Assembly (NCBI GenBank): GCA_018806915.1
Contig: JAGKQI010000087.1
Span: 1-64,000, forward strand
From: Phytophthora colocasiae
Taxonomy: Eukaryota; Oomycota; Peronosporomycetes; Peronosporales; Peronosporaceae
Reading direction: 5' to 3'
DNA: 64,000 bases
Positions 2,705 through 32,054 of this stretch are shown one piece after another. The notes under the pieces are model-generated. The model saw nothing but the letters and a program-made list of their open reading frames with translations. It ran no database searches and was not told the DNA's origin. The translations under genes were made by a program, and so were the position numbers. Each line of letters begins with the position of its first letter. Within the stretch, counting starts at the first letter, position 1.

Positions 2705-3164
2705 TGTAATGGGTCTACCTAGACCTATTAGATGGCGTACACGTGCGCTTACGTGTATGAGGAAGCGTGCAATTAGAATAGACTTAATTTAAGTATACTT
2801 ATTTAAATAAGTATAATTAAATCAAATATAACTAAATTAAACTGCAAAATACCGTAAAATGAGAACTGTTATTGAATTTGGCATAAGCCAATTATGGACC
2901 TCCTAAAACTGTTTGTTATCTATTTCTAAAGGGTCTGCCAACGTGTGGTTGGCAGAAACTCTGCTCAGTAATTGGAAGAAATCCGTTACTTTCTACCAAT
3001 AATATGCACAAATGCACACGAACCATCCAATAATGTGGTTCGCCCATGTATCCATTGGTGTGTACAGCACACCAAGGTCTGAGGCTCATTTCCAACCTCT
3101 AACAGTTATCCTAACTGTTAGAGTTACAAGTGGTACAACCACTTGTACGTGTAACCCCGTTACA
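2705..3164 (-). repeat. Gypsy-A 3-prime LTR
   Basis: A 460-bp LTR with TG...CA ends (TGTAATGG...GTTACA as read on the plus strand). It is nearly identical to 15614-16073. It is rich in perfect dyads, for example 3097-3123 (12-bp arms, 3-base loop) and 3125-3147 (9-bp arms). Relative to the element this is the downstream LTR. Confidence 0.95.
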
Positions 3165-3180
3165 CCATCCCCCCGTTAAG
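3165..3180 (-). promoter_or_regulatory. Gypsy-A polypurine tract
   Basis: On the minus strand the bases just before the 3-prime LTR read CGGGGGGATGG, a purine-rich run adjoining TGTAAC. This is where the plus-strand primer is expected and it confirms minus orientation. Confidence 0.65.
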
Positions 3181-3265
3181 ATTCGACGCATCGGTCTCGA
3201 TACGTCAATCAACAGAACTTGACAAGACCGTCAAGTTCCCGAGAGAAATCCGAGTTCATTTCGCA

Positions 3266-4624
3266 ATGGACTCGCCAACGCCCACGTCTCCGTCCGCTTC
3301 TGCGGACGCGCAAGCCTCACCTGCTGCCTCTGCAGCAGGAACAACGACCTCAGCAGTGCCCACTAGCACTGCTGCTTCCAGCGGTCTGACAGAGAAGCTC
3401 TCTGTCACCAAGTACCATGCTCTCCATAAGGAGAAGCATGAGAAGAAGAAGAAGTCTTCTTCTCTAGCAGGGATTAAGAATCCTGCTGTCCCTCTCAAAG
3501 AACTCTTTGGAGAGGACTACGAAAACATCCTCGACTACGAGGAGGATGTCGAGGAGGGGGAGGTTGATGTCAAGACTCCCGCTCCCGTGTCTTCGTCTGA
3601 AGACACGTCAGACCCACCCGTGGGTTCTAGACGACCTCGTGATGAGGCCTCGGACGCTTCAAGCTCGAAGCGTCCGCGCAGTGATGACGAAGCGTCCCCC
3701 ATGTCGAGGGCGCTCACTGCCCCGCGCACTGATCCGCCAGTGCGCACACCATGGATGCCTACTGAGGCAGAAATCCATGGCCGGTTCGGTGCTAGTTCAC
3801 CACCGAACCCGATACTGTTGTACTCATGCAACAGTATCAACGACGACGACGTCGCCGCTAAGGTTGTCTTTGAGTCCGAGACTCAAAGACGCGACTACTA
3901 TATCGGACTCTTCCACGAGCTCCGATACTATGCAGCGAAGAAGACTTCGCGCAAGAGCAAAGTGCCAGAGTGGCAGGCACTTTGTCAGTCGTGGAATGCC
4001 TTTGTTGATAACTTCAACAAAGACCCGAAGGCGTATCGCGAGCGTGTTGCTGCGGCTCGCGATCGCTACTACACTTACACTACGCGTGGTAAGTGTGAAC
4101 GCCTCCATGATCAGTCCATGGAAGCGGGAATCCCATGTGCCGTTCCCTTTGGCACACCCTGTCCGTGTTGCCAACCTTTGGCAACACGCCTCACCGAAAG
4201 TGATCTCCTGGGGTACACGGTCGTCCGTGTACCCGATCACATCAAGGAGCTCCGTGGTCGTATTGTGCCACGCGAAGCTCCGAGTGCTGTGGCTAACCGC
4301 AGCACTCCTCGTGCAGGGCTTACCCCTGCAAGTTATGGTGGGCTTCGTACGCCCTCACCATTTCCGGAACGTCCTCCATCAGGACGTTCCGCGGCTCCCA
4401 TGTATCTCGATGGGGAGGAAATCCTCTCCAACGAATACGAAAACGAACCCCTTGAGAGTTCGTTCTCTTATGAGCCACTATCCGCTCAACAATCCAGCGG
4501 ATCGCTCCACGCGCGTCGCGCAACGGCGGCGGAGGGGGTGGGAACACTCCCTCCGCATGGTCAACGCTATGACCATGACGATCGTGCCCTGCACGATCGA
4601 GTTGCTGCGCTGACAGAGCGCTGA
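3266..4624 (+). CDS. Antisense accessory ORF of Gypsy-A, function unknown
   Basis: A 452-residue ORF lies on the strand opposite to gag-pol, starting about 100 bp inside the 3-prime LTR and overlapping the chromodomain-end ORF by about 300 bp. The N-terminal third is Ser/Ala/Pro-rich, followed by a Lys-rich patch (residues 55-64), an acidic stretch (about 85-100), and basic KRPR near residue 131. The middle (about 165-330) looks globular, with aromatic and charged residues and a CPCC cysteine cluster near residue 300. I recognise no family. It lacks a zinc knuckle and protease or RT motifs. Its length, ATG start and lack of stops argue for a real product, presumably transcribed from the LTR in antisense. 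The reading could also be a by-product of constraint on the opposite strand only in its last 300 bp. Confidence 0.6.
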   Translation: MDSPTPTSPSASADAQASPAASAAGTTTSAVPTSTAASSGLTEKLSVTKYHALHKEKHEKKKKSSSLAGIKNPAVPLKELFGEDYENILDYEEDVEEGEVDVKTPAPVSSSEDTSDPPVGSRRPRDEASDASSSKRPRSDDEASPMSRALTAPRTDPPVRTPWMPTEAEIHGRFGASSPPNPILLYSCNSINDDDVAAKVVFESETQRRDYYIGLFHELRYYAAKKTSRKSKVPEWQALCQSWNAFVDNFNKDPKAYRERVAAARDRYYTYTTRGKCERLHDQSMEAGIPCAVPFGTPCPCCQPLATRLTESDLLGYTVVRVPDHIKELRGRIVPREAPSAVANRSTPRAGLTPASYGGLRTPSPFPERPPSGRSAAPMYLDGEEILSNEYENEPLESSFSYEPLSAQQSSGSLHARRATAAEGVGTLPPHGQRYDHDDRALHDRVAALTER

Positions 4625-5048
4625 GATAGCGGCTCTGAAGCAGGAGGTTCGTGTCCTCCGTGCTGAGGTCTGCGAGGCAGCTCAGACTGCCTCGAACCTC
4701 TCGTCCGGTCTTGGGACGAGAGTGAGCCGGTTGATCGACCGTGTCGGCGGTCTCGAGAGGCCTTCCAGGCCTCTCGCACTGCTCAGTCGGACTACCAACC
4801 CTAGGTAGTCCGTGCTGCACGTACGGCTTCAACCGCCCGACGTAGAAGGTCGGGTGGAGCCTCATACTGGACGGTATGTCCAGCCGGTACGCGTTGCCGT
4901 GCCGTTCAAGTACTTTGAACGGCCCAATGAATCTTGGAGCAAGCTTGCTTGCTCCAAAGTCAGACACTGCATGTTTAGGCAGGTTTTGTGTAGCTAACAA
5001 AACTAATGAACCCACTTTGAATTCATTTATGTTGCCCCCTACCAACAT
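4320..5048 (-). CDS. Gypsy-A pol C-terminal part: integrase tail and chromodomain
   Basis: This 242-residue segment continues the integrase ORF after a frameshift near 5034-5040. It begins with the SH3-like integrase C-terminal region (FKVGSLVLLAT, then FIGPFKVLERHGNAYRLDIP and HPTFYVGRLKPY). It ends with a chromodomain (VERIVAHKR...FRIRWRGFPPHRDTWEP...). In chromoviruses this domain guides integration toward marked chromatin. The linker has a run of six prolines. The upstream frame break (GGGGG run) lies in a dyad, ATGTTG/CAACAT, at 5029-5048. Confidence 0.88.
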   Translation of the reverse strand: MLVGGNINEFKVGSLVLLATQNLPKHAVSDFGASKLAPRFIGPFKVLERHGNAYRLDIPSSMRLHPTFYVGRLKPYVQHGLPRVGSPTEQCERPGRPLETADTVDQPAHSRPKTGREVRGSLSCLADLSTEDTNLLLQSRYLSALSAQQLDRAGHDRHGHSVDHAEGVFPPPPPPLRDARGAIRWIVERIVAHKRTNSQGVRFRIRWRGFPPHRDTWEPRNVLMEDVPEMVRAYEAHHNLQG

Positions 5049-6309
5049 TGTCAGCGTTCAGCTTCTGTCGATCGACAGAAGCTGCGATAGCATCCTGGAC
5101 AAACCGTATGACGGCTTGTCTTCGCTGGACAAAGTCTAGCGCACCCGAGCTGAATCCATTCAGCTTGTCGCCCTTGTCAGCAGCAGGCCCTGCCTGCTCG
5201 CTATCATCTCTCATGTCTGTGCCCGGCACAGACATCGCGCGCTCGTTCCTGCTCGAACGAGACGTCGCACGCGTCACCGCAGCTGATAGTGTGCTGCTAT
5301 CAGTTGCATTCTGCGGTTGTTCGGACGCAACCGTAGATCCTCCCCCACTTAAGGAGGAAGCTACCCCGCCGAGCATGCTCGGCAATCGTGGATGCCTCAT
5401 GGCATTCACGTAGAACGGTGTATGCCCTGTCGAGGCATGCACCGAGTTGTTGATGGCAAACTCTGCCATCGGCAAGCACTCGCTCCAATGCGGGAACGAG
5501 TGAGCGTAGCTCTTCAGCGTGTCACCCAGTACGCGGTTGACACGTTCGGTCTGTCCGTCCGTCTGCGGATGATCCGCAGTCGACATTGACAATTGTGAAC
5601 CAAGAAGTGTAAACACTTCTTGCCAGAACCGCGCTGTGAAGCGTGGATCACGGTCCGACACAATGTCGAGCGGCATGCCATGGTGTTTGAACACCATGTC
5701 AACAAACAGTCGCGCAGTCTGCGCGGCTGTAACAGTAGCCGGGACGGCAGCAAGATGAACCATCTTGCTGAATCTGTCCACAAAGACAACGATGCCCGTC
5801 CTCCGCTTGCTGTCAGGCGGAAGACCGAAGACAAAGTCCATGGACATGGACTGCCAACACTCCGACGGAGTCGGTAGTGATTGAAGAGGAGCCTGCGAGA
5901 ACTGCGCAGGCTTCACGCGTTGACAAACCTCGCAAGCACGGACGTACTTGCGCACCCACTTGTACTGGTGGTGCCAGTAGAAGTCACGCGTGAGAAGAGT
6001 GTATGTCTTCTCACGACCCGGATGCCCTGTCGTGGGGGCATCGTGATACTCGAACATGATCCTCAACCGGAGGTCATGATCATTCGGAACGACAATGCGA
6101 TCCGCATTGTCGTCGACTGCACTGTACAACAGTAGGCCTTCGTGTACACGATAGCGGTGTACACGAGCTCGAAGATGAGGGGTTAGCTTCCGACGTGCCA
6201 CGTCGGAAGGTGCTGCGAGGAACTCCAGCAGCCCCTTCGCGTCTGCATCCCTTGCATACGCGTTCTTCACGTCGTCAATCAACGTTGACGACGGCACACT
6301 TGTCCTCAC
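5023..6309 (-). CDS. Gypsy-A integrase
   Basis: Integrase of a Ty3/Gypsy pol. The HHCC zinc domain is visible (HDAPTTGHPGREK...CEVCQRVK). The catalytic triad is D in SMDFVFGLPP, D in DIVSDRDPRF and E in HPQTDGQTERVNRV. Further upstream on the minus strand (to 6442) the RNase H tether ending in VADALSRR is readable in another frame, so a frameshift lies near 6340, in a GTCGACC/GGTCGAC dyad region. The downstream end runs into the frameshift at about 5038. The nucleotide sequence is full of inverted repeats, for example 5060-5083 (24-bp perfect palindrome), 5679-5698 and 5748-5770. Confidence 0.92.
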   Translation of the reverse strand: MRTSVPSSTLIDDVKNAYARDADAKGLLEFLAAPSDVARRKLTPHLRARVHRYRVHEGLLLYSAVDDNADRIVVPNDHDLRLRIMFEYHDAPTTGHPGREKTYTLLTRDFYWHHQYKWVRKYVRACEVCQRVKPAQFSQAPLQSLPTPSECWQSMSMDFVFGLPPDSKRRTGIVVFVDRFSKMVHLAAVPATVTAAQTARLFVDMVFKHHGMPLDIVSDRDPRFTARFWQEVFTLLGSQLSMSTADHPQTDGQTERVNRVLGDTLKSYAHSFPHWSECLPMAEFAINNSVHASTGHTPFYVNAMRHPRLPSMLGGVASSLSGGGSTVASEQPQNATDSSTLSAAVTRATSRSSRNERAMSVPGTDMRDDSEQAGPAADKGDKLNGFSSGALDFVQRRQAVIRFVQDAIAASVDRQKLNADNVGRGQHK

Positions 6310-6438
6310 GACGCCAACTGCGTTGGCGTCGACCGTCTCCGCAGTCAGGTCGACGCGATAACGCGTCGGCCACTACGTTGAGTCTTTCGGGTTTGTACTC
6401 CACCCGGAAGTTGTACTCCGCAAAGAAGGACAACCATC

Positions 6439-6442
6439 TCGC
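6439..6442. repeat. Target duplication TCGC, left copy
   Basis: TCGC precedes the nested LTR element and recurs at 11530-11533 directly after it, a 4-bp target-site duplication inside the Gypsy-A pol gene. Confidence 0.75.
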
Positions 6443-7860
6443 TGTGGTGAAGCGGACGAAAAAATTTTCCCGGAGAGGCGATGTCAGCCACGAACCCGAA
6501 TAGAGTCGGAACGAGCGACAGGGGGGACCTGTGATCGCCAGATCTGGGTCGAATCAGACGAAGGTACGATGGGTCCCGCCGGGAACAGGCAACGGAGACA
6601 CCGGCGAAGAAGCAGGTGGAGCGGTGTTCGTGGGTGATCCGAATCCTGCCGTGGTGTTCGTGGGTGATCCGAATCCTGCCGGAGGAAGAATGGGGAAATC
6701 AAGGATGTTCTCGCGCGATCAACGATGACGGGGCCCCAAGCGAGCATGATCAGCTTACCCTGGCGCCCCGAAGCCTCTAACAGCACGATCCAACTTCCCC
6801 GGGCGGCGACGAAGCGAGATCACGCAAGATCGCGCAATGATCCTCTCCCGTATAAGTACGAGATCAGCTCCGGATCAAGGTCAACCCCAGGCGCGACGCA
6901 GACTCTTCTTGTGGCCTGATCCGGATTCTTTGAAGGATCACCAAGCGGGATCAGGCAGTGATCAAGTCCCGATTAAGTACGAGATCAAGCTCCGGTTAAG
7001 TGCGAGATCAAGCTTCGGTTAAGTGCGAGATCAAGCTTCGGTTAAGTGCGAGATCAAGCTTCGGTTAAGTGCGAGATCAAGCTTCGGTTAAGTGCGAGAT
7101 CAAGCTTCGGTTAAGTACGGAATCGGCTCAAGATCAGGGTTAGGGGAACCAAGCTAGGGATCAGCTCTGTAGCCAGTGTCATGTGGTCGTAGGATAGTAA
7201 ATCAGGATGGGATTAGTAGGCATAGGAATAACCATAAACGGACTCGAATTTGCCCTGAACCACTCAAGTGTCTTCGCTACGCCTGGAACCGGGAACTACA
7301 TTGGCCCTACAAGCGTCAGGAAGGTAAGGATACGTGACCTAGTATAGCGGTTAAGTCTGGATAATATATTGGCCAGCTTTGCCTATCTAGTGAACTATCC
7401 TTTAAGTGCATACATCGGATCGGAAGGAATTGGTTGTTTAGCCTAAGGATCCCGTCGAATCTCGCCCCCTCAAGACCCCCGCTATCGGAAGCGGAAAACA
7501 ACGAAAGGAAGGGACTGAATCCCGAACATTGGACTATTGGAAGACCTGGATCAAGAACCAGGCACCCGGATCAAGGCTCGAGAACTCGCCTACGACCGGG
7601 ATCAAGTACCCCGAGGTGGAGTGAAGAACTTCCACGCCGCCTCAAACCCCTGCGTCACCCAAGACCTTCTTCTCGTCCCAAGACATCTTCAGAAGTTACC
7701 TGGAAGAGCGTAACCCGCCTACCGACGGGTACACAAGGTGAACACTACACGCAACAAGATCACGGATCATCGGGGGACCCCCTCCGTTAGTCGGTGTCTG
7801 GGCGCAAGTGGCGATCGCGATCGGCCTCAACCGGATTTTGGCCAGATCCGCTCCACCACA
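6443..7860 (+). repeat. Nested element 5-prime LTR (1418 bp)
   Basis: Begins TGTGGTGAAGCGG and ends CCGCTCCACCACA (terminal inverted TGTGGTG/CACCACA). It contains TATAAG at 6851 and a minisatellite at about 6972-7110 of 23-bp units (GTTAAGTGCGAGATCAAGCT core): one variant plus five standard units, against one plus three in the other LTR. Several short ORFs cross it, but they look like chance readings. Confidence 0.93.
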
Positions 7861-8566
7861 ATGGTGCGCGTGCCCGGATCTTCTGGTGACTTCGGATATC
7901 ACCGTGAGTCCCAAGAAGATGTCAAGATAAAAGAAGAACAAGGGGAAGAAGTGCCTACGAATGTTGGATCGACGGAGGCACCACTGAAAACAGAAAGATC
8001 CACAGATCAGCAGAGTTCTGGGAGGATCTCTACTGACTGGGCACGAGGCAGACCTGGATCGCAATCCAGATCTCGAAGAAAAACCTCGAATTCCTCCCAA
8101 GGCCCCTTCGAGGGCCATTGCGGATCTCGATGAGAATCGAGATCCGCACACGAGCGATAAGGAATCAGCAAAGCTGAAACCTAACCTGCTCACCAAGTCC
8201 ACTGTTGCCTCAAGATCGACCAAGAAAAAGAAGATCAAGAGCACCCGGACGAAATTGAAAGCTCCAGACTCAGAGCCAGAAGATGTGATCAACCCAGGAT
8301 CAACGATCACCAAGGACGCGATCGAGCAGGCCTACTACAGGAAGAGGCTAAGCGAGACCTTGCTTAACAATCCTGTTCTTACGATCATACAAGTCCGCCA
8401 GATCGGTAACCTCACAGGCCCAGTGTCGAAGCCCCGGACTAGCTCTGACCGCCTGAACGCGGTGAAGATCCTACTTGATCTGCTCCAAGAAGCTGGTTTG
8501 GTGGCTGGAGAGTTCGAACCAAACTCTCTATTTGACTTGGAACTGCAAGCGATTCAATCTGCTTGA
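7861..8566 (+). CDS. Nested element sense ORF region, unknown, probably frameshifted
   Basis: Two overlapping frames are open. Frame one runs from ATG 7861 (inside the primer-binding site) to 8133, about 90 residues, Ser- and charge-rich. Frame two is open from about 7989 to 8566 without an early ATG. It includes a basic patch (KKKKIK) and a C-terminal part that looks folded (residues from DAIEQAYYRKRL through LLDLLQEAGLV). Together they could be a gag-like protein of about 230 residues joined by a +1 shift. No zinc knuckle is present, and I recognise no family. It ends where the convergent antisense ORF ends. Confidence 0.4.
7862..7880 (+). promoter_or_regulatory. Nested element primer-binding site
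   Basis: One base after the LTR, TGGTGCGCGTGCCCGGATC would pair with a tRNA 3-prime end. Its complement parses correctly as a T-stem strand CCGGG, a 7-base acceptor strand CACGCGC, discriminator A and CCA. The tRNA identity was not established. Confidence 0.75.
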
Positions 8567-10137
8567 TCCGCCAACAGATCCAGCGGACTCGCCGTTGATC
8601 CTGCCGGGGTCGGGACCACCGTGGGTGTGACAGGCTGGGTTGACCCGGGAGCTTCGGTAGCTGCAGGTTTTAGATCACGGGGAGCTGAGGTGCTCCGAGC
8701 CGGACGCTTGCGAGAGGAAGGAGGAACGGCCGGGGAAGCGGAGGCGCTTCGAGATCTTTTGGTGGCACGAGCCGCCCGTCGATCCGCGATCCACGAGGAC
8801 AACCGAGCAGAGGAATCCTCGGCGTGGTGCAGCTGTTGCTCGGCTTCGGCATAATCAGCGTCCAGCTCTTGGTGAGCCTGTCGAAGCTCCGCGTTCTGTC
8901 GCTGGAGTTGGTCGAGTTCCTGTGTCGCCGCATCCCGGGCGGAACGAGCCACGTCAAGGTCTGCGAGGGCAGACAAACGATCTTGGGTGGCATCGTCCAG
9001 GTCGACCTGGATTCGATCACGGTCTGCCGTTACTCGATTGAGATCTTGCATTGCCTGATCCCGGTCGAGGCGGGCCTGATCCAGGTCTGCGACGGCCTGA
9101 TCCCGCTCGGCAATGGCGGCACGATGCTGGACGGAGAGCTGGTCCCGGTCGTGCTGGATTATTTCCAGATTTCCCAAGGCGTCTGCCAGATCTTGCTCCA
9201 AGCTGGATACGGCGGCGGCATCGGCGGTTGCACCCAGAGGCGGAGCGCGAGAATCCGGGGCGGATACGTCCTCCAAGGCGAGGTGTGCCCGAGCCAGTTC
9301 AACCTGGTGATCCTCTGCCTCGCGTTCCAGATACGCGACTTCGGCTCGAGCGGCGAGCAACTCCGCTTGGGTCCGCGTCAACTCCAACCTCAACCGAGCT
9401 TCCTCTGCTGTCGGGCGAGCCTGATCAGCAGGCATGGCCATAGCCGCTTGTGGACCTTGGGAGGAATCGTTCCTCTGCCAGCGATCAAGGCTACGCTGAG
9501 TGAGGGTCAGGTCATGACGCACGGCGGCGAGCTCCCGTTCGCGATCCTGAAGCTCATCCCGGAGTTCAATCTCCGTCTCCCCGGCTATGCGAAGTTCGGC
9601 CAGCCGGAAGTCGAGATCCTCGAGCGCAGAGTCTAGCCGCGCCTGGATCCGGGCCAGTCGCTGCTCAGACTCCCGTCGTTCGGCGTCGTGCTGGGCCCGC
9701 TGATCCTGCAAGGCGGCGATCGCGTCCCCACCGATAGCATCTCCGGTTCCCGATCGCAGATGAGCGATTTCGGCGTTCAGCCGCAAAATCTCCTCCGCTT
9801 GGTCGTCCCGGAAGCGCTCCATATCCTCCATGTCGGATCGCAACCGGCGAACGGTGTCGTCCAGGTGGTCCCGATCGCGACTCAAGGTCTCGCGCATCCG
9901 TTGGCTATGGGCCAGCCTCGCTTGCAAGGTGACCAGCTCAGGGTTTACCCCGGGGGTTGAGAAGCGGGAGGCCGTGGATCGGGCGGATCGGAGCGAGTGT
10001 TCGCTTGAGGGCGTTCTCGGCGTCAAGGGGGGCGAGGAAGGCGGATCGGACATTTCGAGAGAGTGGTGGCGCTTGAACGACTTGTGTTCCAGGTGGTGAA
10101 TGTGGAAATAAACCCGAAGTGAGCTGCGGCAGCTCAA
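8554..10137 (-). CDS. Long coiled-coil protein, antisense in the nested element
   Basis: An uninterrupted 527-residue ORF (ATG 10137; a second in-frame ATG at 10053 begins MSDPPSSPP). After a Ser/Pro-rich N-terminus, residues of about 70-440 are dense heptad-like coiled coil rich in Asp, Glu, Arg, Leu and Gln. The tail is basic and Ser/Pro-rich (KRSRSASASP...). It is clearly homologous to the N-terminal region of Gypsy-B at 16690-17930, sharing for example AEQQLHHAEDSSARLSSWIA. Here it runs opposite to the LTR orientation set by primer site and polypurine tract, so it looks like captured sequence from the Gypsy-B family. Unlike the Gypsy-B copy it has no frameshifts. Confidence 0.8.
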   Translation of the reverse strand: MSCRSSLRVYFHIHHLEHKSFKRHHSLEMSDPPSSPPLTPRTPSSEHSLRSARSTASRFSTPGVNPELVTLQARLAHSQRMRETLSRDRDHLDDTVRRLRSDMEDMERFRDDQAEEILRLNAEIAHLRSGTGDAIGGDAIAALQDQRAQHDAERRESEQRLARIQARLDSALEDLDFRLAELRIAGETEIELRDELQDRERELAAVRHDLTLTQRSLDRWQRNDSSQGPQAAMAMPADQARPTAEEARLRLELTRTQAELLAARAEVAYLEREAEDHQVELARAHLALEDVSAPDSRAPPLGATADAAAVSSLEQDLADALGNLEIIQHDRDQLSVQHRAAIAERDQAVADLDQARLDRDQAMQDLNRVTADRDRIQVDLDDATQDRLSALADLDVARSARDAATQELDQLQRQNAELRQAHQELDADYAEAEQQLHHAEDSSARLSSWIADRRAARATKRSRSASASPAVPPSSRKRPARSTSAPRDLKPAATEAPGSTQPVTPTVVPTPAGSTASPLDLLADQAD

Positions 10138-10146
10138 CTTACGTGC

Positions 10147-10156
10147 TGGGGGCGGA
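10147..10156 (+). promoter_or_regulatory. Nested element polypurine tract
   Basis: GGGGGCGGA directly precedes the right LTR (TGTGGTG), as expected for a plus-oriented element. Confidence 0.6.
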
Positions 10157-11529
10157 TGTGGTGAAGCGGACGAAAAAATTTTCCCGGAGAGGCGATGTCA
10201 GCCACGAACCCGAATAGAGTCGGAACGAGCGACAGGGGGGACCTGTGATCGCCAGATCTGGGTCGAATCAGACGAAGGTACGATGGGTCCCGCCGGGAAC
10301 AGGCAACGGAGACACCGGCGAAGAAGCAGGTGGAGCGGTGTTCGTGGGTGATCCGAATCCTGCCGTGGTGTTCGTGGGTGATCCGAATCCTGCCGGAGGA
10401 AGAATGGGGAAATCAAGGATGTTCTCGCGCGATCAACGATGACGGGGCCCCAAGCGAGCATGATCAGCTTACCCTGGCGCCCCGAAGCCTCTAACAGCAC
10501 GATCCAACTTCCCCGGGCGGCGACGAAGCGAGATCACGCAAGATCGCGCAATGATCCTCTCCCGTATAAGTACGAGATCAGCTCCGGATCAAGGTCAACC
10601 CCAGGCGCGACGCAGACTCTTCTTGTGGCCTGATCCGGATTCTTTGAAGGATCACCAAGCGGGATCAGGCAGTGATCAAGTCCCGATTAAGTACGAGATC
10701 AAGCTCCGGTTAAGTGCGAGATCAAGCTTCGGTTAAGTGCGAGATCAAGCTTCGGTTAAGTGCGAGATCAAGCTTCGGTTAAGTACGGAATCGGCTCAAG
10801 ATCAGGGTTAGGGGAACCAAGCTAGGGATCAGCTCTGTAGCCAGTGTCATGTGGTCGTAGGATAGTAAATCAGGATGGGATTAGTAGGCATAGGAATAAC
10901 CATAAACGGACTCGAATTTGCCCTGAACCACTCAAGTGTCTTCGCTACGCCTGGAACCGGGAACTACATTGGCCCTACAAGCGTCAGGAAGGTAAGGATA
11001 CGTGACCTAGTATAGCGGTTAAGTCTGGATAATATATTGGTCAGCTTTGCCCTATCTAGTGAACTATCCTTTAAGTGCATACATCGGATCGGAAGGAATT
11101 GGTTGTTTAGCCTAAGGATCCCGTCGAATCTCGCCCCCTCAAGACCCCCGCTATCGGAAGCGGAAAACAACGAAAGGAAGGGACTGAATCCCGAACATTG
11201 GACTATTGGAAGACCTGGATCAAGAACCAGGCACCCGGATCAAGGCTCGAGAACTCGCCTACGACCGGGATCAAGTACCCCGAGGTGGAGTGAAGAACTT
11301 CCACGCCGCCTCAAACCCCTGCGTCACCCAAGACCTTCTTCTCGTCCCAAGACATCTTCAGAAGTTACCTGGAAGAGCGTAACCCGCCTACCGACGGGTA
11401 CACAAGGTGAACACTACACGCAACAAGATCACGGATCATCGGGGGACCCCCTCCGTTAGTCGGTGTCTGGGCGCAAGTGGCGATCGCGATCGGCCTCAAC
11501 CGGATTTTGGCCAGATCCGCTCCACCACA
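10157..11529 (+). repeat. Nested element 3-prime LTR (1373 bp)
   Basis: Same sequence as 6443-7860, except for two fewer 23-bp minisatellite units (-46) and a one-base insertion (+1), which account exactly for the 45-bp length difference, plus about one substitution. The flanking TCGC at 11530-11533 is the target duplication. Confidence 0.93.
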
Positions 11530-12364
11530 TCGCCATACGTTGCGAGATGTGCGGCGACTTAATCGCCGTACGCAATGATGCGTGGTCTGTATAGACCACG
11601 AACGGTCTACTCTCAAGTAGATACACTCGGAACTTTGCGAGTGCATACTTCATGGCAAGGAGCTCCTTGTCATGTACGGGATAGTTACGCTCAGCTGGCT
11701 TCAGCTGACGCGATTGATAGTAGACTACACGATCACGCCCTTCGTGATCGTGTTGCATCAATGCACATCCGATTGCAAAGTCGGATGCATCGCACACTAC
11801 GTGGAATGGACGATCTTGGTCCGCTACGGCCAATATCGGCGCTTCAGTCAAGCCCTGCTTGACTGCACCGAATGCATCCTCGCACTCGGACGTCCAAATC
11901 CACTCAGCTTCTTTCTTGAGAAGCTGTGACAACGGGCGAATCTTGCCCGCATAGTTCTCCACGTACTTGCACAAGTACGTGGCAAGCCCAAGGAACTGCC
12001 TCAGTTCCTTCACATTGGATGGCGTGGGCCATTCATTGATCACTCTGGCCTTCTCTGGGTCAGGGCGCACGCCGTCTTGCCCCACGAGACACCCCAGCAC
12101 GGGTATCTCGCTCGCCCCGAAGATACACTTCTTCAGGTTCGCATAGAGCTTATGTTTCCTCATAAGCTCTAGCAGCTTCCGGAGATGCACCTTGTGCATC
12201 TCAATGTCCGTCTTCCCGTTCACAGCCCGGCTGTGGACGAACCCGTCGTCGAAGTAGCTCGGTGCGAAGTCGGACACCGAGCGCAATAGATGTGTCACGC
12301 ATCTATTGAACGTCGCAGGGGCGTTCTTAAGCCCCTGTGGCATGACGAGCCACTCCCAAAGCAT
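11530..12364 (-). CDS. Gypsy-A reverse transcriptase (palm onward) and RNase H
   Basis: Begins at MLWEWLVMPQGLKNAPATFNR, the RT segment before the active site. The active site is YFDD (in SYFDDGFVHSR), followed by the thumb (ECEDAF and neighbours) and RNase H (VVCDASDFAIGCALMQ, DKELLAMKYALAKFR, YTDHASL). The ORF runs on into the nested LTR for a few codons (stop at 11456); the true protein resumes at 6442. It is out of frame with the preceding RT part because of a one-base defect near 12393, inside a perfect 21-bp dyad at 12387-12407. Confidence 0.9.
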
Positions 12365-12378
12365 ACCGCTTGGAGTGC

Positions 12379-13350
12379 TTACCGCAGTGAGAGGGATTCC
12401 CTCTCACGCATGAGGATCTGATAGAATCCATCACGCAGATCTAGAGCACTGAAGATAGTGCTCAAGGCCATCGAATCGATGATGACATCTTTTCGCGGTA
12501 TCGGCGTCTGCGCCGGTATCGTCGCATCGTTCAGCTTGTTATACGCATGAACGATGCGCCAGCCGCCATGTGGTTTCTTAACACAGAACGTTGGAGCACT
12601 GTGCGGGGACTTTGACTCCCGCACTTGACCTGCAAGACGACGACTTTCAAAGAAGTCGTCGATCGCTTGCACTTGTTCACGCGGCAGTGGCCACTGCCGT
12701 GTAACACAGTACTTCGTGCCCGGCACGAGATCAATCTCGTGCTGTACGCCCTTATCCTTCGGAAGTTCCGAAGGAATCTCGTCCGGGAGTACATCCTTGT
12801 ACTCCCGCAGAACTTCGTAGTAGGGACTCGACCTCAACGAGTCCCAACTCTGCTCTTCGAAGCGCTGCTTCTTAGTCTTCGCACTGAGGGAGTCATCACC
12901 CTCAGTGATCCCATCGACGACGAGCTGCTTCAGCTCTTCGGCCTCGCGCTCCACTCTCTCGATATCCGAGAGAATGCAAATTTGTTCGATGCGTCCATCG
13001 TACAAGTCTCGTGCGAAGCGCTTCCAACTCATCGTTGGAAGTGCGGTCAACGCCGACGCACTCGTCGGCGGATTCTCCAACCGCATCCTCTGGTACTGTA
13101 ACCCAGTACCAGTACGTGTCAAGACGTTCAACGTCTCGACACTCGGTGTCTGCACTGCAGATACACCCGTCTCAGTCCCGGACTGAGACTCGCGCAGCTC
13201 CCTGAGCTTGCGCCGCGAAGATCTACCATGGAGCCCGGCTCCAGGTGCTCCACGTCCAAGGCATCGCACCTTGGACGGGACGTTATCGCAATCGTCAGCG
13301 GATTCCTTCCGCTGACTCGCACTATCAAGCCCTGCTTGAGTGCCGCTCAT
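12379..13350 (-). CDS. Gypsy-A reverse transcriptase, N-terminal part
   Basis: A linker rich in charged residues leads into the RT fingers and palm: PSELPKDKGVQHEIDLVPG, then APTFCVKKPHGGWRIVHAYNKLNDATIP and FSALDLRDGFYQI (motif with the first catalytic Asp). It terminates four codons after the lesion at about 12393, whereas the other frame continues with IPLTAVSTPSG and the rest of RT. So the domain is intact in content but split. Confidence 0.9.
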   Translation of the reverse strand: MSGTQAGLDSASQRKESADDCDNVPSKVRCLGRGAPGAGLHGRSSRRKLRELRESQSGTETGVSAVQTPSVETLNVLTRTGTGLQYQRMRLENPPTSASALTALPTMSWKRFARDLYDGRIEQICILSDIERVEREAEELKQLVVDGITEGDDSLSAKTKKQRFEEQSWDSLRSSPYYEVLREYKDVLPDEIPSELPKDKGVQHEIDLVPGTKYCVTRQWPLPREQVQAIDDFFESRRLAGQVRESKSPHSAPTFCVKKPHGGWRIVHAYNKLNDATIPAQTPIPRKDVIIDSMALSTIFSALDLRDGFYQILMRERESLSLR

Positions 13351-13991
13351 CGCGTGCAGCGCTGCTGCACGTGAGCACGCAGGTTGTTCGGGTGCTGGGC
13401 GTTTGCAACCGCCAGCACCTCCTGCCGCGCAGTCGGTTCCCTGAACCGCTGCGCTTCATCCGCTCCCGGAGCGGATGAAGCAACCGCATCGTCGACTCCC
13501 GGAGTCGACGTGCTCTCGCTAGCTTCCTGCGCTAGCGAGTGTTCGCTTATACACATGTCGTCAGCTCCCAAAGCTGACGCACGTTCGCTAGTTCCCGGAA
13601 CTAGCAGCGAACGTTCGCCTGTACACGCATCATCAGCTCCCGGAGCTGATGCACGATCGCTAGTTCCCAGAACTAGCAGCGACGCGCCAGTGGCGTCAGC
13701 TCCCAAAGCTGACGCACGCCTTTCGGTTCCCCGAATATTATTTGCTTCGTCAACTCCCAGAGTTGACGCGACGTCGTCGGCGCGACCCTTGGAGGCTTGA
13801 ACTACCTCCAAGGATACCGGTAATACCGGTATTTTACCTTCTCTCAGGTGAATTGCATTCACCTGACCATCACTCATGTGACAAACATCATTCAGATGTT
13901 TACGCGTCAGGTGATTCACATTCACCTGACCATCACTCATGTGACCGCGACCCTTCGGCTCAGATTTCTGAGTCGACACACATTTTCTCAC
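13347..13991 (-). CDS. Gypsy-A protease-RT spacer with repeats
   Basis: A 214-residue low-complexity segment between protease and RT, in a different frame from both. It contains a loose protein repeat of about 20-25 residues (variants of SALGADDA, LLVPGTSERA) and two HMSDGQVN boxes. The DNA at 13454-13768 is a string of at least nine perfect dyads, for example 13454-13480 (13-bp arms, 1-base loop), 13491-13509, 13581-13614, 13631-13651, 13693-13715 and 13748-13768. This part of pol is variable in the family, so its function is unclear. Confidence 0.6.
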   Translation of the reverse strand: MRKCVSTQKSEPKGRGHMSDGQVNVNHLTRKHLNDVCHMSDGQVNAIHLREGKIPVLPVSLEVVQASKGRADDVASTLGVDEANNIRGTERRASALGADATGASLLVLGTSDRASAPGADDACTGERSLLVPGTSERASALGADDMCISEHSLAQEASESTSTPGVDDAVASSAPGADEAQRFREPTARQEVLAVANAQHPNNLRAHVQQRCTR

Positions 13992-14137
13992 AACGACTCC
14001 CGGAGTCGTTGATGGTCGCCGGCGGCCGCTGCTGCCTCAACTGGGGATTCACATGCACCGGCCGGTGCATGTGCAGCACTGACAGGGCCATCGCTCTCTG
14101 TCGCGCATGTGTTGTTGAAGCGTACGAGCGTACGCTT

Positions 14138-14620
14138 CTACCAGTTGATCACCGGGTCATGCCGTGCAAGCCACGGCATGCCTAATACCAAGTCGAACTT
14201 ATCGTCTAGATCCAAGACGATAAGATCTTCTACAAACGTCCTTCGTTTGTAAGAGAAGCGCACACGGACTACGCGCTTCTCAGTCCTCACGGTGGCACCT
14301 GTTGCCAACCGCACCTCCAACACGCCGCGAGGCGTGTCGGCCTCTTCGAAGTCAAGCCTTCGAAGACTTCCCTGTCGAACAAAGTTGTTCGACGCGCCCG
14401 AGTCCACTAGGGCACGAAGAGAGTTCACTCTCTTCGACATCACGTTCAGGATGACAAGGCCTGGCTTGTCATCTTGCATCTCGCAGCGAGAAACCTTCTC
14501 GCTGGGGGCAGCAGCCTTCAACGTCGCGTGTCCAAGCTCGACACGCGAGACTGCATCACCAGTAGGACGCCCCGCGCCTACTGGTCCTTGGCGTTTTTTG
14601 AACGCCCGCCCGCTGTGCAC
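14138..14620 (-). CDS. Gypsy-A aspartic protease
   Basis: Retropepsin-like domain with the catalytic triplet in LRALVDSGASNNFVRQ and a later hydrophobic LVLGMPWLARHDPVI segment, as in Gypsy proteases. It is in the -1 frame relative to gag and overlaps the gag end by 43 bases; a frameshift signal at 14558-14599 joins them. The ORF stops at TAG 14138 where a family protein would continue (W then basic KRTLVRF), so a nonsense change is likely. Confidence 0.88.
   Translation of the reverse strand: MHSGRAFKKRQGPVGAGRPTGDAVSRVELGHATLKAAAPSEKVSRCEMQDDKPGLVILNVMSKRVNSLRALVDSGASNNFVRQGSLRRLDFEEADTPRGVLEVRLATGATVRTEKRVVRVRFSYKRRTFVEDLIVLDLDDKFDLVLGMPWLARHDPVINW
14558..14599 (-). promoter_or_regulatory. 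-1 ribosomal frameshift signal between gag and protease
   Basis: On the minus strand the canonical slippery heptamer A-AAA-AAC (14593-14599) sits exactly in gag register (TCA AAA AAC). After a 7-base spacer (GCCAAGG) comes a perfect 9-bp stem, ACCAGTAGG/CCTACTGGT, with a 10-base loop. Slipping back one base enters the protease ORF and avoids the gag stop four codons later. Confidence 0.8.
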
Positions 14621-15564
14621 TCGCGTGCATAGTGACCGATGTTACTGCACTTGTAACATCGAACCTTGCCGTATCTACGCTGCTGTTGACCAGCAGTCGT
14701 AGCACTCGAGAGGTCCATAGGTTCCGGACCTCCCGTCTTCACAACAGGACGCGCCGGCTTCGGCGCGTTCGCATGGAGTTTAGCTTGACGCCGGCTAAAC
14801 TCCTCTTGCATTGCAAGGCTGATCGCCTCCTCGAGAGTATTCGGATACTCTCGGAAGAGATACGTCTTGACGGGACCATCTCTTAGTCCCTTCATGAACG
14901 TGACGACCTTGGTCGCCTCGTCGATCGGGTTCGCCACTATGTTCGATACCAAGTATCGAGCACGCTGGGCAAAGGTGTGAACATCATCCTTGCCCTGCTG
15001 CAGATCGAGAAACTCCGCTCTCGATCTGAACTCGTTCTTCGGGGGCTCAAATGCAAGCTTGAGCTCTTCTTTGAACACCTCGTACGTGCCGAAGCACGTA
15101 GGATCCGAGAGTCGGTGCCCATAGGCCCAACTCCTCGCACGTTCGCCAAGACATGACATGGCGAACGCGACCTTCGACATCGGATCGACGATACGTCGAG
15201 CCGCAACGGCTGTGTCGAGTTCGACAAGCCACCGAAGGAGGGTCTCGTCCTCCTTCCCCGTGTAGGTACTCACGTGGAGTTTCAACGACTCCACGCGTGG
15301 CTTAGGGGAAGCCACCGAGGCAGCAACATCTCGTTGCTCCTTAACAATGTACCCCAGAGCAACACCGTGTTGCTCTGTCGGCGATAGCGTACGAAGCATC
15401 GTAGCTACCGCTGCCTCTCCAATGACTCGCGAGAGTCTTTGGAGAGCCTCCCACTCTGGATCAGACAGGTAGGCACAGTCCGTGCGCGTCACGGACATTT
15501 GAGGGGTCCCAGCAGATCCCTCATCCATTGGGGAGTTCTCTACCCCGCGTTCGTATGACTCCAT
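14578..15564 (-). CDS. Gypsy-A Gag polyprotein
   Basis: A 328-residue Gag, starting at ATG 15564 about 50 bp inside the 5-prime LTR. The central part matches retrotransposon Gag capsid (LRWLVELDTAVAARRI, then AFAMSCLGERARSWAYGH and LEAEF-type FRSRAEFLDLQQG). Near the C-terminus is a zinc knuckle CYKCSNIGHYAREC (CX2CX4HX4C). It forms the particle and packages RNA. The stop is preceded by the A-AAA-AAC slippery site. Dyads continue through the gene, for example 15548-15571 (10-bp arms) over the start codon region. Confidence 0.92.
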   Translation of the reverse strand: MESYERGVENSPMDEGSAGTPQMSVTRTDCAYLSDPEWEALQRLSRVIGEAAVATMLRTLSPTEQHGVALGYIVKEQRDVAASVASPKPRVESLKLHVSTYTGKEDETLLRWLVELDTAVAARRIVDPMSKVAFAMSCLGERARSWAYGHRLSDPTCFGTYEVFKEELKLAFEPPKNEFRSRAEFLDLQQGKDDVHTFAQRARYLVSNIVANPIDEATKVVTFMKGLRDGPVKTYLFREYPNTLEEAISLAMQEEFSRRQAKLHANAPKPARPVVKTGGPEPMDLSSATTAGQQQRRYGKVRCYKCSNIGHYARECTAGGRSKNAKDQ

Positions 15565-15593
15565 ACGAACGAACAGCAGTCGGTCGTGGGACG

Positions 15594-15611
15594 GACTACA
15601 AAGTGCTACCA
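15594..15611 (-). promoter_or_regulatory. Gypsy-A primer-binding site (candidate)
   Basis: Two bases inside the 5-prime LTR the minus strand reads TGGTAGCACTTTGTAGTC. It begins with TGG, as primer sites do. Only the first 8 bases resemble a common initiator-tRNA complement, so the primer tRNA is uncertain. Confidence 0.5.
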
Positions 15612-15613
15612 GG

Positions 15614-16073
15614 TGTAATGGGTCTACCTAGACCTATTAGGTGGCGTACACGTGCGCTTACGTATATGAGGAAGCGTGCAATTAGAATAGACTTAATTTA
15701 AGTATACTTATTTAAATAAGTATAATTAAATCAAATATAACTAAATTAAACTGCAAAATACCGTAAAATGAGAACTGTTATTGAATTTGGCATAAGCCAA
15801 TTATGGACCTCCTAAAACTGTTTGTTATCTATTTCTAAAGGGTCTGCCAACGTGTGGTTGGCAGAAACTCTGCTCAGTGATTGGTAGAAATCCGTTACTT
15901 TCTACCAATAATATGCACAAATGCACACGAACCATCCAATAATGTGATTCGCCCATGTATCCATTGGTGTGTACAGCACACCAAGGTCTGAGGCCCATTT
16001 CCAACCTCTAACAGTTATCCTAACTGTTAGAGTTACAAGTGGTACAACCACTTGTACGTGTAACCCCGTTACA
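15614..16073 (-). repeat. Gypsy-A 5-prime LTR
   Basis: 460 bp, about 98-99 percent identical to 2705-3164. The few differences include A/G in the ATTAGGTGG block and T/C in GAGGCCCATT. It is the upstream LTR of the minus-oriented element. Confidence 0.95.
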
Positions 16074-16689: not shown

Positions 16690-18288
16690 GTTTGTACCAG
16701 GCAGATGAGATCCTTCGTCTAAACACTGAAATCGCTCGTCTGCGGTCGGGAACGGGAGGTACCGTCAGTGAAGACGCAGTCGCCGCCTTGCAAGATCAGC
16801 GAACCCAGCACAACGCGAGCGACGAGATTCCGAGCGGCGAATGGCTCGAATCCAGGCACAGCTAGACTCTGCGCTCGGGGATCTCGACTCCCGACTGGCC
16901 GAACTCCGCGAAGCAGGGGAGGCCGAGATCGAACTCCGGGATAAGCTCCAGGATCGCGAACGGGAGCTCGCTGCAGTGCGTTACGATCTCGCTCTCGCTC
17001 AGCGCAGCCTCGATCGCCGGCAGAGGGATGATCCTCTCCCAGGTCAGCAAGCTGCCACGGCCGTACCTGGCGGTCAGGTCCACGCCTCTATAGGGGGAGC
17101 CCGGTTGAGGTTGGAGCTGACCAAGCCCCAAGCGGAATTGCTCACGGCCCGAGCTGAGATCGCGTATCTGGAACGCGAGGCGGAGGATCGTAAGGCTGAG
17201 CTGGCTCGGGAACGTCTCGCCCAGAAGGATACACCTGCATCGGGTCCTCCTGTTCCGTCCTCGGATGTGACCGCCGATGCCGCCGCCATCTCTAGTTTGG
17301 AGCAAGATCTGGCGGATGCCTTGGGGAACCTGGAGATCGTCCAGCACGACCGGGATCAACTCTCCGTCAAGCATCGTATCGCGATCGCCGAACGGGATCA
17401 AGCTGTCACTGATCGGGACCAGGCAGCGCAGGATCTCGATCGGGTTACGGGGATCGGGATCGGATCCAGGCCGACCTGGACGCCGCCACCCAAGATCGCT
17501 TAACGGCTCTCGCGGACTGTGACGTAGCTCGTTCTGCTCGGGACGCGGCCACACAGGAACTGAACCAACTCCAGCAGCAGAACGCAGAGCTCCGACAGGC
17601 TCATCAGGAGCTAGACGCCGATTATGTGAAAGCTGAACAGCAACTGCATCATGCTGAAGATTCTTCTGCTCGGTTGTCCTCATGGATCGCGGATCGGCGG
17701 GTGGCCCATGATACTAAAAGATCTCGCCGCGCCTCCGTCTCTCCTGCTGTCCCTCCGTCGGCGCGCAAACGTCCAGTTCGGAGTTCCTCGGCCCCCCATG
17801 CTCCAGGTGCCGCTGCCGGCGGAGTCGCCGGGACGACCAAGCCCTCCTCGCCCGCGACACCAGCTCCTGCAGGATCAACGGCGAGCCCTCTGGATCTGTT
17901 GGCGAATCAAGCTTCCGGGCAGACTGGAGGGGAGGGAACCGACGTTCCGATCCCCGATCAGGCCTCGATGCCGGCTGATCAGCCAGGATCTGGCCCGCCT
18001 AGCGGCGATCCTCAGGACGAAGAAGAGGATGACTCCGACTACGATCCCAACCACCCGTTCTCGTCGCCGTCCGAAGATGAGAGTCCTGAACGCGGCAGTG
18101 GAGCGAGTCCTGAGACTGGATCGGAACATTCCAGTGAGGCGGAGGAATCAGAGGATGACGACGCCCTACGTATGGCTCGTCAACGGTCTATCTCGTCGGC
18201 TCCTGTTTTCTCCGGTGGTCGCGCCTCGAATTTCGTCTACCGCCCACTCTGCGTTGATCAAGTGGAAGAAGGCTCGTGCAGAGTATGA
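16690..18288 (+). pseudogene. Gypsy-B N-terminal coiled-coil region, frameshifted
   Basis: Homologous to the 527-residue coiled-coil ORF of the nested element. It reads ADEILRLNTEIARLRSG near 16705, breaks near 16830, is open at 16841-17503, breaks near 17448, and is open again at 17626-18288. The last part adds an acidic Ser/Asp/Glu-rich tail (EDEEEDDSDYDP-like) absent from the nested copy. A further shift near 18240 would connect it with the Gag/pol frame (ALIKWKKARAEYEES). The parent protein probably had this extension fused ahead of Gag. It is now inactive. Confidence 0.75.
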
Positions 18289-27893: not shown

Positions 27894-29771
27894 TCAGGCA
27901 TGCCTTTGTTTCTTGCGCAGACCTTCGCCCCGTGACTCACTAGCTTCACGTTCAAAACGTGACACAAGCTGTAAGGCTTCGTGTGCCGTCGGCCGAGCAG
28001 TCGGCTCTGTGTCCATCAACCGATTTAGGAAACGTGCTCTTTGGGGTTCCGCAATCCATTCCTTCTCAATCTTACTTTTCTTCACCAGGTATCCCACGGC
28101 CCATAAGTCAACCGCAATCGTGTGGGTTCCACCTTCCACAAAAATTTCAGAAGCGTGTTCCTCGCGATTCAAGTGATCGCCGCTGGGATATTTCTGCGGA
28201 CTTTGAGCTGCATCAGCAAAGTCGATCAAATACCATTCAGTGCAATCGATACGCTTGATCACATTAGACCAGCGGATGTCTCTGTGCATCCACCCGTTGC
28301 GATGGAGGACTACAAGAGCCTCGAGAACGTTCCGGAGAGCGACGAACAGCTCACTCAAACTGCATGGCTTCACCTCAATGCCGCGGGGCTTAAGTGTCAA
28401 TCTCATTTGGTCGGAATCCACCGTAGCAACTGCATCGGCACAAGGAACCTTAAAAGGCTTCAAAGACTCGTAGATCAGCTTCACACGATGATACTCTTTT
28501 TTTGTAGGAAAGATCTTATCGACGAAAGACGGACTCAATCGTATCTTGACGCCATTGTCGCGATGGATGTCCATGAACTCGATCTCTGCCGAGGCCGGAC
28601 AGTTTCGCACAATTACCGGGAAAAGTAGACACAAATTCAAAAGTGCCAGTACAAGTCGAAAACGCTCCGGCGATTGCTGCAAGTTAAAACCTCCAATTCG
28701 GTAGGTTTTAACGATGCTTTTTGTATTTTTGTCGTCACGCATCTCCACATCTTGCTCCATGTCGTCACTCATCTCCACATATTGCCCCATGACGTTACGT
28801 TTTAGTAAAACTCGATAGATAGCAAATAATTCTAGCTCGAAGCCCGACGCCGCATAGCCAAACAAATACGGCACTCCAGCGTAAGACCACCTCAACTTTT
28901 CAGAGAGCTCCTCACGAGGCACAGTGACAGGAGTACGAGGTTGTTTCTCCTCACCACGAAAGACACAGACAGAATTCAAAATAAACGTAAAGTCGGGTCG
29001 CTTCAAACCTGAGGAGGACTTCCTGCTCGAATCCCGGTTGACGTAAGCACGCTTAAACACAAACAAGAGCACCACACGGATAATTGAATCCCAGAAATAA
29101 TGGAATGCACTCTCTGTGGCGTCTCCATCCACCATCGGGTGCAAGAACGCATGGCTAAACACCGCATCTTTCAAAAGTGTGCAAGGCGAAACGTCGTTCA
29201 TCTCGAACAACTTATCTCGAAGGACTTGTCCTAGTATCAATGGACTCGCCCAATCTTGAAACACGGACTTTGGTAACCCAATCTTCACAGGGAGAGGTCG
29301 CCCAATAAATTCTTCTAGACTTCCCCGTGTCGGCAGTGAGTCGATTTCCGCAACTTCGTTATTATGAAATCTCGATAACCATACGTCCGTCCCATCCGAA
29401 ATAGGCGCACTACTCGTCCCAGCAGGCACCACCACCAACACGTGAACCACGTCCTCTCCAAGACACACGTTTGGCCCAAACAACGACGGGTCTTTTTCTC
29501 TGTTCAACTTCCATGACGGGCGCAGCTTCTGCAGTTTTGAAATGTCAACTGGGTTATGCAGCATCTCGTCCAGGTCATCATCATCTGGCAACCACCCGCC
29601 ACCCCCCGTCTTCGCCAGGAAGAGCTGCAGGTCCTTAGCGTCACATGTGACTGTTGCTGGGTTGTTGTCCTTGATCGAACTCTTCAACGCGAACACCGAA
29701 GCGTCTTCAGCGATGTTTACCTCGAACGCGCTGCCCGCCGCACCAACGATCGCACAGAAAAGCTTCACCAT
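27894..29771 (-). CDS. CRN effector 1 with kinase-like C-terminal domain
   Basis: A 625-residue Crinkler effector from ATG 29771. The header has LQLFLAK at residues 48-54, an acidic DDDD patch, and HVLVVVP at 110-116, the boundary where CRN C-terminal domains are exchanged. No classical hydrophobic signal peptide is obvious. The C-terminal domain has a kinase catalytic loop HRDIRWSNVI (496-505) and IDF (516-518) in the DFG position, as in the kinase-type (CRN8-like) class. The end is basic (RKKQR). CRNs enter plant cells and act in the nucleus; kinase activity here is inferred. A short acidic repeat (variants of MSDDMEQDVEMRDDK) lies mid-protein. The frame is intact. Confidence 0.92.
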   Translation of the reverse strand: MVKLFCAIVGAAGSAFEVNIAEDASVFALKSSIKDNNPATVTCDAKDLQLFLAKTGGGGWLPDDDDLDEMLHNPVDISKLQKLRPSWKLNREKDPSLFGPNVCLGEDVVHVLVVVPAGTSSAPISDGTDVWLSRFHNNEVAEIDSLPTRGSLEEFIGRPLPVKIGLPKSVFQDWASPLILGQVLRDKLFEMNDVSPCTLLKDAVFSHAFLHPMVDGDATESAFHYFWDSIIRVVLLFVFKRAYVNRDSSRKSSSGLKRPDFTFILNSVCVFRGEEKQPRTPVTVPREELSEKLRWSYAGVPYLFGYAASGFELELFAIYRVLLKRNVMGQYVEMSDDMEQDVEMRDDKNTKSIVKTYRIGGFNLQQSPERFRLVLALLNLCLLFPVIVRNCPASAEIEFMDIHRDNGVKIRLSPSFVDKIFPTKKEYHRVKLIYESLKPFKVPCADAVATVDSDQMRLTLKPRGIEVKPCSLSELFVALRNVLEALVVLHRNGWMHRDIRWSNVIKRIDCTEWYLIDFADAAQSPQKYPSGDHLNREEHASEIFVEGGTHTIAVDLWAVGYLVKKSKIEKEWIAEPQRARFLNRLMDTEPTARPTAHEALQLVSRFEREASESRGEGLRKKQRHA

Positions 29772-29787
29772 CTTTCCTCGAGCCAGC

Positions 29788-29802: not shown

Positions 29803-29837
29803 GCGCACTTCAGCGGACACGAAGGTGCGTGTGACTT

Positions 29838-32019: not shown

Positions 32020-32054
32020 CTTTGCTCGAGCCGGCAGATTCTGGAATGTGAGGA

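Follow-up and report, generated by a model that had tools for sequence, protein, structure and literature searches.

Why should a retrotransposon be covered from end to end with short inverted repeats, in its coding frames and its long terminal repeats (LTRs) alike? The question is raised by Gypsy-A, which lies in the first 64,000 nucleotides (nt) of contig JAGKQI010000087.1 of the oomycete Phytophthora colocasiae (assembly GCA_018806915.1); this 64-kb stretch is the window referred to below. Gypsy-A occupies two parts, 2705-6442 and 11530-16073, split by a nested LTR element at 6443-11529. On the minus strand it encodes, in order, the Pfam domains Retrotrans_gag, Ty3_capsid, RVT_1, RT_RNaseH, Integrase_H2C2 and rve between two LTRs, and it is a Ty3/gypsy-type LTR retrotransposon, with gag followed by reverse transcriptase (RT)/RNaseH and integrase. 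An earlier note on this DNA had described the inverted repeats, or dyads, by eye. Here we report that the dyad tiling of Gypsy-A is real and very strong, and that its features suggest that the folded shape of the Gypsy-A RNA is itself under selection.

Dyads with arms of at least 7 bp and loops of up to 15 nt were counted in 1-kb bins of the window and in dinucleotide shuffles of the same bins. Gypsy-A held 23, 19 and 16 dyads per bin in 3001-6000 and 19, 24, 20 and 13 in 12001-16000, a range of 13-24 per kb in these interior bins, whose shuffles gave 0.5-1.1. Most bins outside the element held 0-4 per kb, the exception being 39001-40000 with 8; this sole clearly raised bin outside Gypsy-A adjoins a Tc1/mariner-like DDE_3 transposase (38499-39611). 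Codon-preserving shuffles (60 for each of four open reading frames (ORFs), arms of at least 7 bp, loops of up to 13 nt) gave 1.7 dyads for the integrase ORF (highest of 60, 6), where 25 were observed, 0.9 against 15 for the RT/RNaseH frame (11456-12403), 0.9 against 15 for gag and 2.7 against 31 for an ORF on the opposite, antisense strand. Since both kinds of shuffle fell far below the observed counts, and since dyads run through four ORFs, LTRs and gaps alike, chance, base composition, codon bias and protein repeats are excluded as causes, the last two in agreement with the earlier note. Tandem repeats were also rejected: direct repeats in Gypsy-A were not clearly enriched, and the loop motif described below persists when 13450-14577 is left out. 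The excess is limited to loops of up to about 15 nt, and inverted repeats at larger distances in Gypsy-A were not clearly above expectation, so that long-range folding was set aside too. In all, the window copy contains 142 non-overlapping hairpins with a median spacing of 42 nt; arms in the dyad list never exceed 14 bp, and the register that pairs third with third codon positions is used by 17 of 62 dyads.

All ten dyads given as examples in the earlier note were present, with two corrections of length: the arms at 3125-3147 are 10 bp rather than 9, and the perfect 24-mer at 5060-5083 sits in a 26-mer at 5059-5084. Its count of about eighteen dyads in 4840-5500 was too high, as 11 were found at our thresholds, shorter arms presumably having been counted too. 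Its claim that the nested element and the neighbouring Gypsy-B lack the tiling was borne out by their low dyad density and by folding energies near those of shuffles.

Folding energies were computed in 120-nt windows and compared with shuffles, as the earlier note had proposed. The energy of Gypsy-A lay below shuffles along the whole element, by 34-35% on the gag-pol strand and 42-46% on the opposite strand, with a mean z of -3.7 to -4.8 and z below -2 in 88-94% of windows; for the nested element, Gypsy-B, copia, a third Gypsy element and host genes the difference was -1 to +4%. Stems are mostly 8-10 bp and loops mostly 3-7 nt. Looking inward from the stems, the fraction of pairs closing a 0-nt loop was at chance (0.26-0.31) and that closing a 1-nt loop near it (0.11-0.40 by condition; 14/35, p=0.05, in one of four), 2-nt loops were intermediate (0.35-0.52), and pairs closing 3- and 4-nt loops were far over chance (0.48-0.60). 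Pairing thus stops near the 3-nt limit, about where the steric rule would place it, and the dyads behave as single-strand hairpins. Once impossible inner pairs had been opened (arms of at least 8 bp beforehand), loops of 3 and 4 nt and stems of 9 bp were the most frequent. The same operation reduced the anticorrelation of arm and loop length from -0.35 to -0.12 (loops below 3 nt opened), and the idea of a fixed hairpin span of small-RNA size was therefore dropped.

The tiling is a property of the family. The comparison covered 29 further copies (L002-L030, the window's own copy being L001; 40 were scored out of 669 candidates from one DNA query), six copies chosen for divergence and a fragment in locus L033, all in one genome. 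The 29 copies carried 9.4-14.7 dyads per kb (arms of at least 8 bp, loops of up to 12 nt) in 3.6-kb stretches reaching partly beyond the element, and the six divergent copies 6.7-11. Nineteen of 20 other integrase loci had 0-0.57 dyads per kb; the twentieth, L033, had 2.57 and contains pieces of Gypsy-A at 88-92% identity. Candidate matches to the integrase region numbered 3238 at first look, and the 150 that were scored were 92-100% identical, which gives a minimum size for the family. No relatives were found in viral and prokaryote contigs, and plasmid records gave three remote integrase matches only.

The loops carry a motif that distinguishes the strands. Read on the gag-pol strand and compared with spacer 3-mers (GG in 12.4%, CC in 8.9%), the 38 triloops contained GG in 22 cases and CC in none, with NGG in 18 and CCN in none; some triloops, CGG ones included, were created by opening an impossible 1-nt loop. 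Without the local repeats of 13450-14577, 28 triloops remained, with GG in 14, CC in none, NGG in 11 and CCN in none (p=1.6e-6 for NGG). Loops of 5 nt showed a weaker bias (GG 7, CC 1, of 20). The N of NGG can vary: the hairpin at 4164 has GGG in 27 of the 29 other copies and AGG in 2. CCHC zinc knuckles are known to bind exposed G in loops, and the Gag of Gypsy-A has one such knuckle, so G-displaying loops could be repeated putative binding sites for it during packaging.

Variation among copies was used to look for selection on the stems. Pairwise arm conservation against divergent copies was not relied on, since dyads are defined in one sequence or in the majority, which biases the comparison, and an earlier variant test that also counted intermediate frequencies was superseded. 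We relied instead on low-frequency shared variants, found in at least two but no more than 20% of copies; 3627 sites were covered by at least 10 copies, coverage being thin in part A2. Compared with spacers, arms were depleted of such variants (odds ratio 0.55, p=0.003), third codon positions on their own showing the same (0.49, p=0.02), and loops were enriched in them (2.9). No left/right asymmetry of shared arm variants was obvious in the variant list. Integrase residues encoded wholly by arms were private to the family in 4.8% of cases against 15% elsewhere, with a weaker difference in the antisense ORF (19% against 25%). Taken together, the scarcity of shared variants in arms and the strand bias of the loops speak for selection on a folded strand.

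The copies also differ by inverted loops. Relative to the window copy there were 99 clusters of multi-base differences, and four were exact loop inversions between kept arms (at 3109, 3450, 3877 and 6319), matching the local reverse complement over 23-27 bases, against maxima of 9 and 13 in the mirror and complement controls. Comparing all pairs of copies added inversions at 6100-6102 and 11738-11742, and at 6319 a second pair of alleles. Of the 928 distinct clusters, 26 agreed with a reverse complement nearby for 12 bases or more, although many of them represent the same events in variant form; no cluster did so with the mirror or the complement. Control families had no inversion in 79 clusters, but their few dyads gave little chance to reveal one. 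Six hairpins thus have spacers inverted between perfect arms; their arms are all 10-12 bp long, which matches the rule reported for yeast template switching, where spacer inversions need arms >9 bp (PMC8604942). These segregating inversions, an outcome that template switching predicts, show that strand switching acts on Gypsy-A hairpins.

We therefore favour, with somewhat less than even confidence, a mixed account in which short-range template switching writes RNA hairpins and selection keeps the useful ones, because traces of both processes are present. The whole transcript is predicted to fold into a string of local hairpins; template switching would make or extend them, giving perfect arms in one step and occasionally flipping a loop, a route to perfect arms that has been described (PMC8794818); and hairpins would be kept since the element's RNA works better folded. 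We infer that their function is packaging or evasion of silencing. A more specific version, which we regard as doubtful, is that some 140 perfect hairpins, with stems made by template switching, might act as dispersed Gag-recognition sites through their NGG triloops, across reading frames, LTRs and the antisense gene.

Several observations weigh against selection on folded RNA. The strongest objection is the missing preference for G.U pairs, which RNA-level selection alone should favour. On the gag-pol strand, stems of at least 8 bp were purely Watson-Crick at 12-15 per kb, with G.U at 3.0-3.8 and with A.C at 5.7-5.9 (shuffles: 0.1, 1.5-1.6 and 1.0-1.1), and single-mismatch stems numbered 7 with G.U against 12 with A.C. 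MS2 RNA, our yardstick for structured coding RNA, has an energy difference of 25-28%, 0.56 purely Watson-Crick stems per kb and 3.1 with G.U; its ratio of perfect to one-mismatch stems is 3:12, against 115:30 in Gypsy-A. The opposite strand, moreover, folds at least as well as the gag-pol strand, so that neither a preference for G.U nor better folding of the coding strand, the marks of RNA-type pairing, was seen in Gypsy-A. Such perfect stems that do not prefer G.U are a poor fit to ordinary selection on RNA structure. The loop motif, common among triloops, is absent from 4-nt loops (GG 4, CC 4, of 29). Arm depletion taken alone was not significant at first and second codon positions (0.68, p=0.25) or at non-coding sites (0.33, p=0.11), and singletons, which may be common to copies outside this sample, also lean away from arms, less strongly (0.82, p=0.05). 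The covariation of arms that the earlier note had suggested looking for is scarce: across 66 usable dyads, only nine stem positions carry two Watson-Crick types among copies, and none of the 56 stem pairs that changed in divergent copies was compensated. In other species, residues compatible with dyads are scarcely retained at the same places in the homologues (integrase p=0.02, antisense ORF p=0.34), a weak result that is not used as proof. The objection from G.U would lose its force if folding is required of both strands, a need that the antisense gene makes plausible, or if switching produced the stems only recently.

A purely mutational origin, in which the family RT or host repair of complementary DNA (cDNA) switches template in short quasi-palindromes often enough for perfect hairpins to accumulate without function, seems rather unlikely to us, even though several observations suit it. 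The arms are mostly perfect Watson-Crick and alike on both strands, the loop limit has the hairpin size expected of nascent-strand snap-back, loops have inverted within the family, and loop-side changes to the complementary base numbered 15 against 6.0-11.5 expected, several of them the inversions themselves. One copy carries two arm-matching changes together at 5477-5506, a possible case of homogenisation, and template switching is reported to make arms alike and to flip the spacers between them (PMC8604942, PMC8794818) and has been proposed for coding palindromes of nematomorphs (PMC6649704). Yet mismatch-fixing variants among present copies are not in excess, either inside stems (4 against 4.4-5.7 expected) or at their outer ends (7 against 7.6), and arm homogenisation and compensatory multi-base changes likewise show no excess beyond the one possible case. 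By our reasoning, if stems were repaired by copying, roughly every second arm mutation should end up in both arms, in contrast to the 0 of 56 compensated pairs; there are also 205 low-frequency arm variants against 13 minority dyads. Template switching is thus not seen repairing stems at present. Nor does this origin account for NGG loops favouring one strand, and spacer inversions may merely follow from long perfect arms. Both causes put forward in the earlier note accordingly survive in part: selection for folded RNA gains from the loop limit, the strand motif and the depletion of variants in arms and loses from the pairing rules and the equal folding of the opposite strand, and hairpin-templated copying gains from perfect stems and loop inversions and loses from the missing excess of mismatch fixing and compensation.

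It is decidedly improbable, in our view, that the tiling is chiefly a shield against silencing, although this would explain the missing G.U preference, hairpins being needed on both strands. Transcripts of either strand would be kept in short hairpins that resist sense-antisense annealing or copying by RNA-dependent RNA polymerase and are too short for Dicer. The antisense ORF, with 562 homologous proteins, and the longest listed arm of 14 bp agree with such a role, and Phytophthora 25/26-nt small RNAs are reported to come mainly from transposable elements, those of 21 nt from inverted repeats and some gene families (PMC3804510). Against it, the 19 other sampled integrase loci persist without tiling, and a bias of NGG to one strand is not predicted; the proposal is drawn from sequence. 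A role at the level of DNA, with hairpins in single-stranded cDNA (protection, strand transfer) or cruciforms in chromatin, would account for Watson-Crick pairs, for the likeness of the strands and for strand-symmetric arms (5' arm G 356, C 336). Arms of 9 bp are short for cruciforms, however, the triloop motif is strand-specific and there is no known need for such a role, which we consider very improbable.

The earlier note knew of no described retroelement family with this property, and the open-licence PubMed Central (PMC) literature, judged by titles and the beginnings of abstracts, agrees: among the matches listed for retrotransposons with palindromes, quasipalindromes, ordered RNA structure or perfect inverted repeats, none resembled Gypsy-A. 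In RNA viruses with genome-scale ordered RNA structure the folding energy lies far below shuffles genome-wide, as in Gypsy-A. The latter differs in being a retroelement, in the likeness of its strands and in its density of pure stems (12-15 per kb, against 0.56 in MS2). Dispersed packaging signals are reportedly the subject of papers on MS2, hepatitis B virus and parechovirus. Like Gypsy-A, they comprise many stem-loops with varied stems and a common short loop motif (PMC6281560); Gypsy-A differs in its mostly perfect stems, its 142 hairpins and a motif clear mainly in triloops, and recognition by its Gag is putative. The nearest described case is that of nematomorph mitochondrial coding palindromes, where perfect inverted repeats occur in many protein-coding genes, imperfect ones are not in excess and arms lie in conserved codons, all as in Gypsy-A (PMC6649704). 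Those arms are far longer: 110 repeats of at least 15 and up to 142 bp (mean 43), at an average distance of 37 bp, in mitochondrial genes (PMC6649704), as against 7-14 bp arms, loops mostly of 3-7 nt and a strand-specific loop motif in a nuclear LTR retrotransposon, LTRs included. Template-switch mutations at short inverted repeats share with Gypsy-A the loop inversions and arms of at least 10 bp, but comprise ten spacer inversions spread over yeast coding genes rather than one element saturated with such repeats (PMC8604942, PMC8794818). Other Phytophthora Ty3/gypsy elements have gag, RT/RNaseH, integrase and LTRs, as Gypsy-A does; the conserved antisense ORF and perhaps the hairpin tiling set it apart from these relatives, which are known here from their proteins.

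In Gypsy-A, then, nucleic-acid structure takes precedence over codon choice throughout a mobile element, a sharp natural example. Three questions become open to test: can switching of template over short distances write structure into genomes, do the particles of Ty3/gypsy elements use numerous dispersed hairpins for packaging, like some RNA viruses, and does structure offer a way round RNA silencing in a group of organisms whose transposons yield small RNAs?

Features of Gypsy-A and the element nested in it (window coordinates)
Feature	Position	Strand	Basis or remark
3' LTR	2705-3164	-	460 bp; 98.7% identical to 15614-16073
Hairpins of 3' LTR	2738, 2794, 2934, 3019, 3055, 3097, 3125, 3149		Inverted-repeat scan
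Antisense ORF, 489 aa	3155-4621	+	No Pfam family; 31 dyads with arm at least 7 bp
Integrase ORF (H2C2 zinc finger and rve core)	5026-6372	-	Pfam PF17921, PF00665; 25 dyads with arm at least 7 bp
Nested LTR element interrupting Gypsy-A	6443-11529		5.1 kb; not hairpin-tiled (internal control)
RT/RNaseH part	11530-12403	-	Pfam RT_RNaseH_2, RT_RNaseH, RVT_1
Upstream pol frame, 358 aa, hairpin-tiled	12379-13455	-	No Pfam match at 1e-3
gag-pol interval, densest hairpins	13456-14577	-	Inverted-repeat scan; 23 per kb, arm at least 8 bp
gag ORF (Retrotrans_gag, Ty3_capsid, one CCHC zinc knuckle)	14578-15627	-	Pfam; 15 dyads
5' LTR	15614-16073	-	LTR alignment
Inverted-loop hairpin (TCC/GGA), 12-bp arms	3097-3123	-	Inverted in another copy
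Inverted-loop hairpin (AGAAG/CTTCT), 10-bp arms	3440-3464	-	Another copy; GAA-type low-complexity stretch, weakest case
Inverted-loop hairpin (CGA/TCG), 11-bp arms	3866-3890	-	Inverted in another copy
NGG triloop hairpin (example)	4164-4188	-	Loop AGG in window copy
Inverted-loop hairpin (ATC/GAT), 11-bp arms	6089-6113	-	Inverted in other copies
Hairpin with loop both TGC/GCA and AGC/GCT in family, 10-bp arms	6309-6331	-	Copy comparison
Inverted-loop hairpin (CCCTT/AAGGG), 11-bp arms	11727-11753	-	Inverted in another copy

No target-site duplication was seen at Gypsy-A. The RT/RNaseH open frame continues to 11456, inside the nested element, and the gag-pol interval holds several CCGGG-centred triloop hairpins as well as a local imperfect repeat at 13534-13682. 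The antisense ORF begins at the LTR border, at the 3' end of Gypsy-A; its protein had no Pfam match, and, of its homologues (E<=1e-3), the best 120 carry Phytophthora names almost without exception. For the integrase, 1862 homologues pass the same threshold, the best 120 being mostly from Phytophthora and 51-89% identical. A protein labelled 'Aeromonas veronii' (P0035, on a 1189-bp contig) is 77% identical to it and is probably oomycete contamination in a bacterial assembly.

The nested element has repeats of about 1.4 kb (6443-7860 and 10157-11529, 96.6% identical), and its segment 8561-9803 and the start of Gypsy-B (16696-17912), which run in opposite directions, are 77.5% identical over about 1.2 kb. 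Elsewhere in the window, a telomeric CCCTAAA array at 1-465 marks the contig end, two adjoining similar Crinkler-type ORFs lie at 27894-32148 (minus strand), the scanned one with a Crinkler N-terminus and a protein-kinase-like domain, and 36005-37420 (plus strand) encodes a MULE transposase domain.

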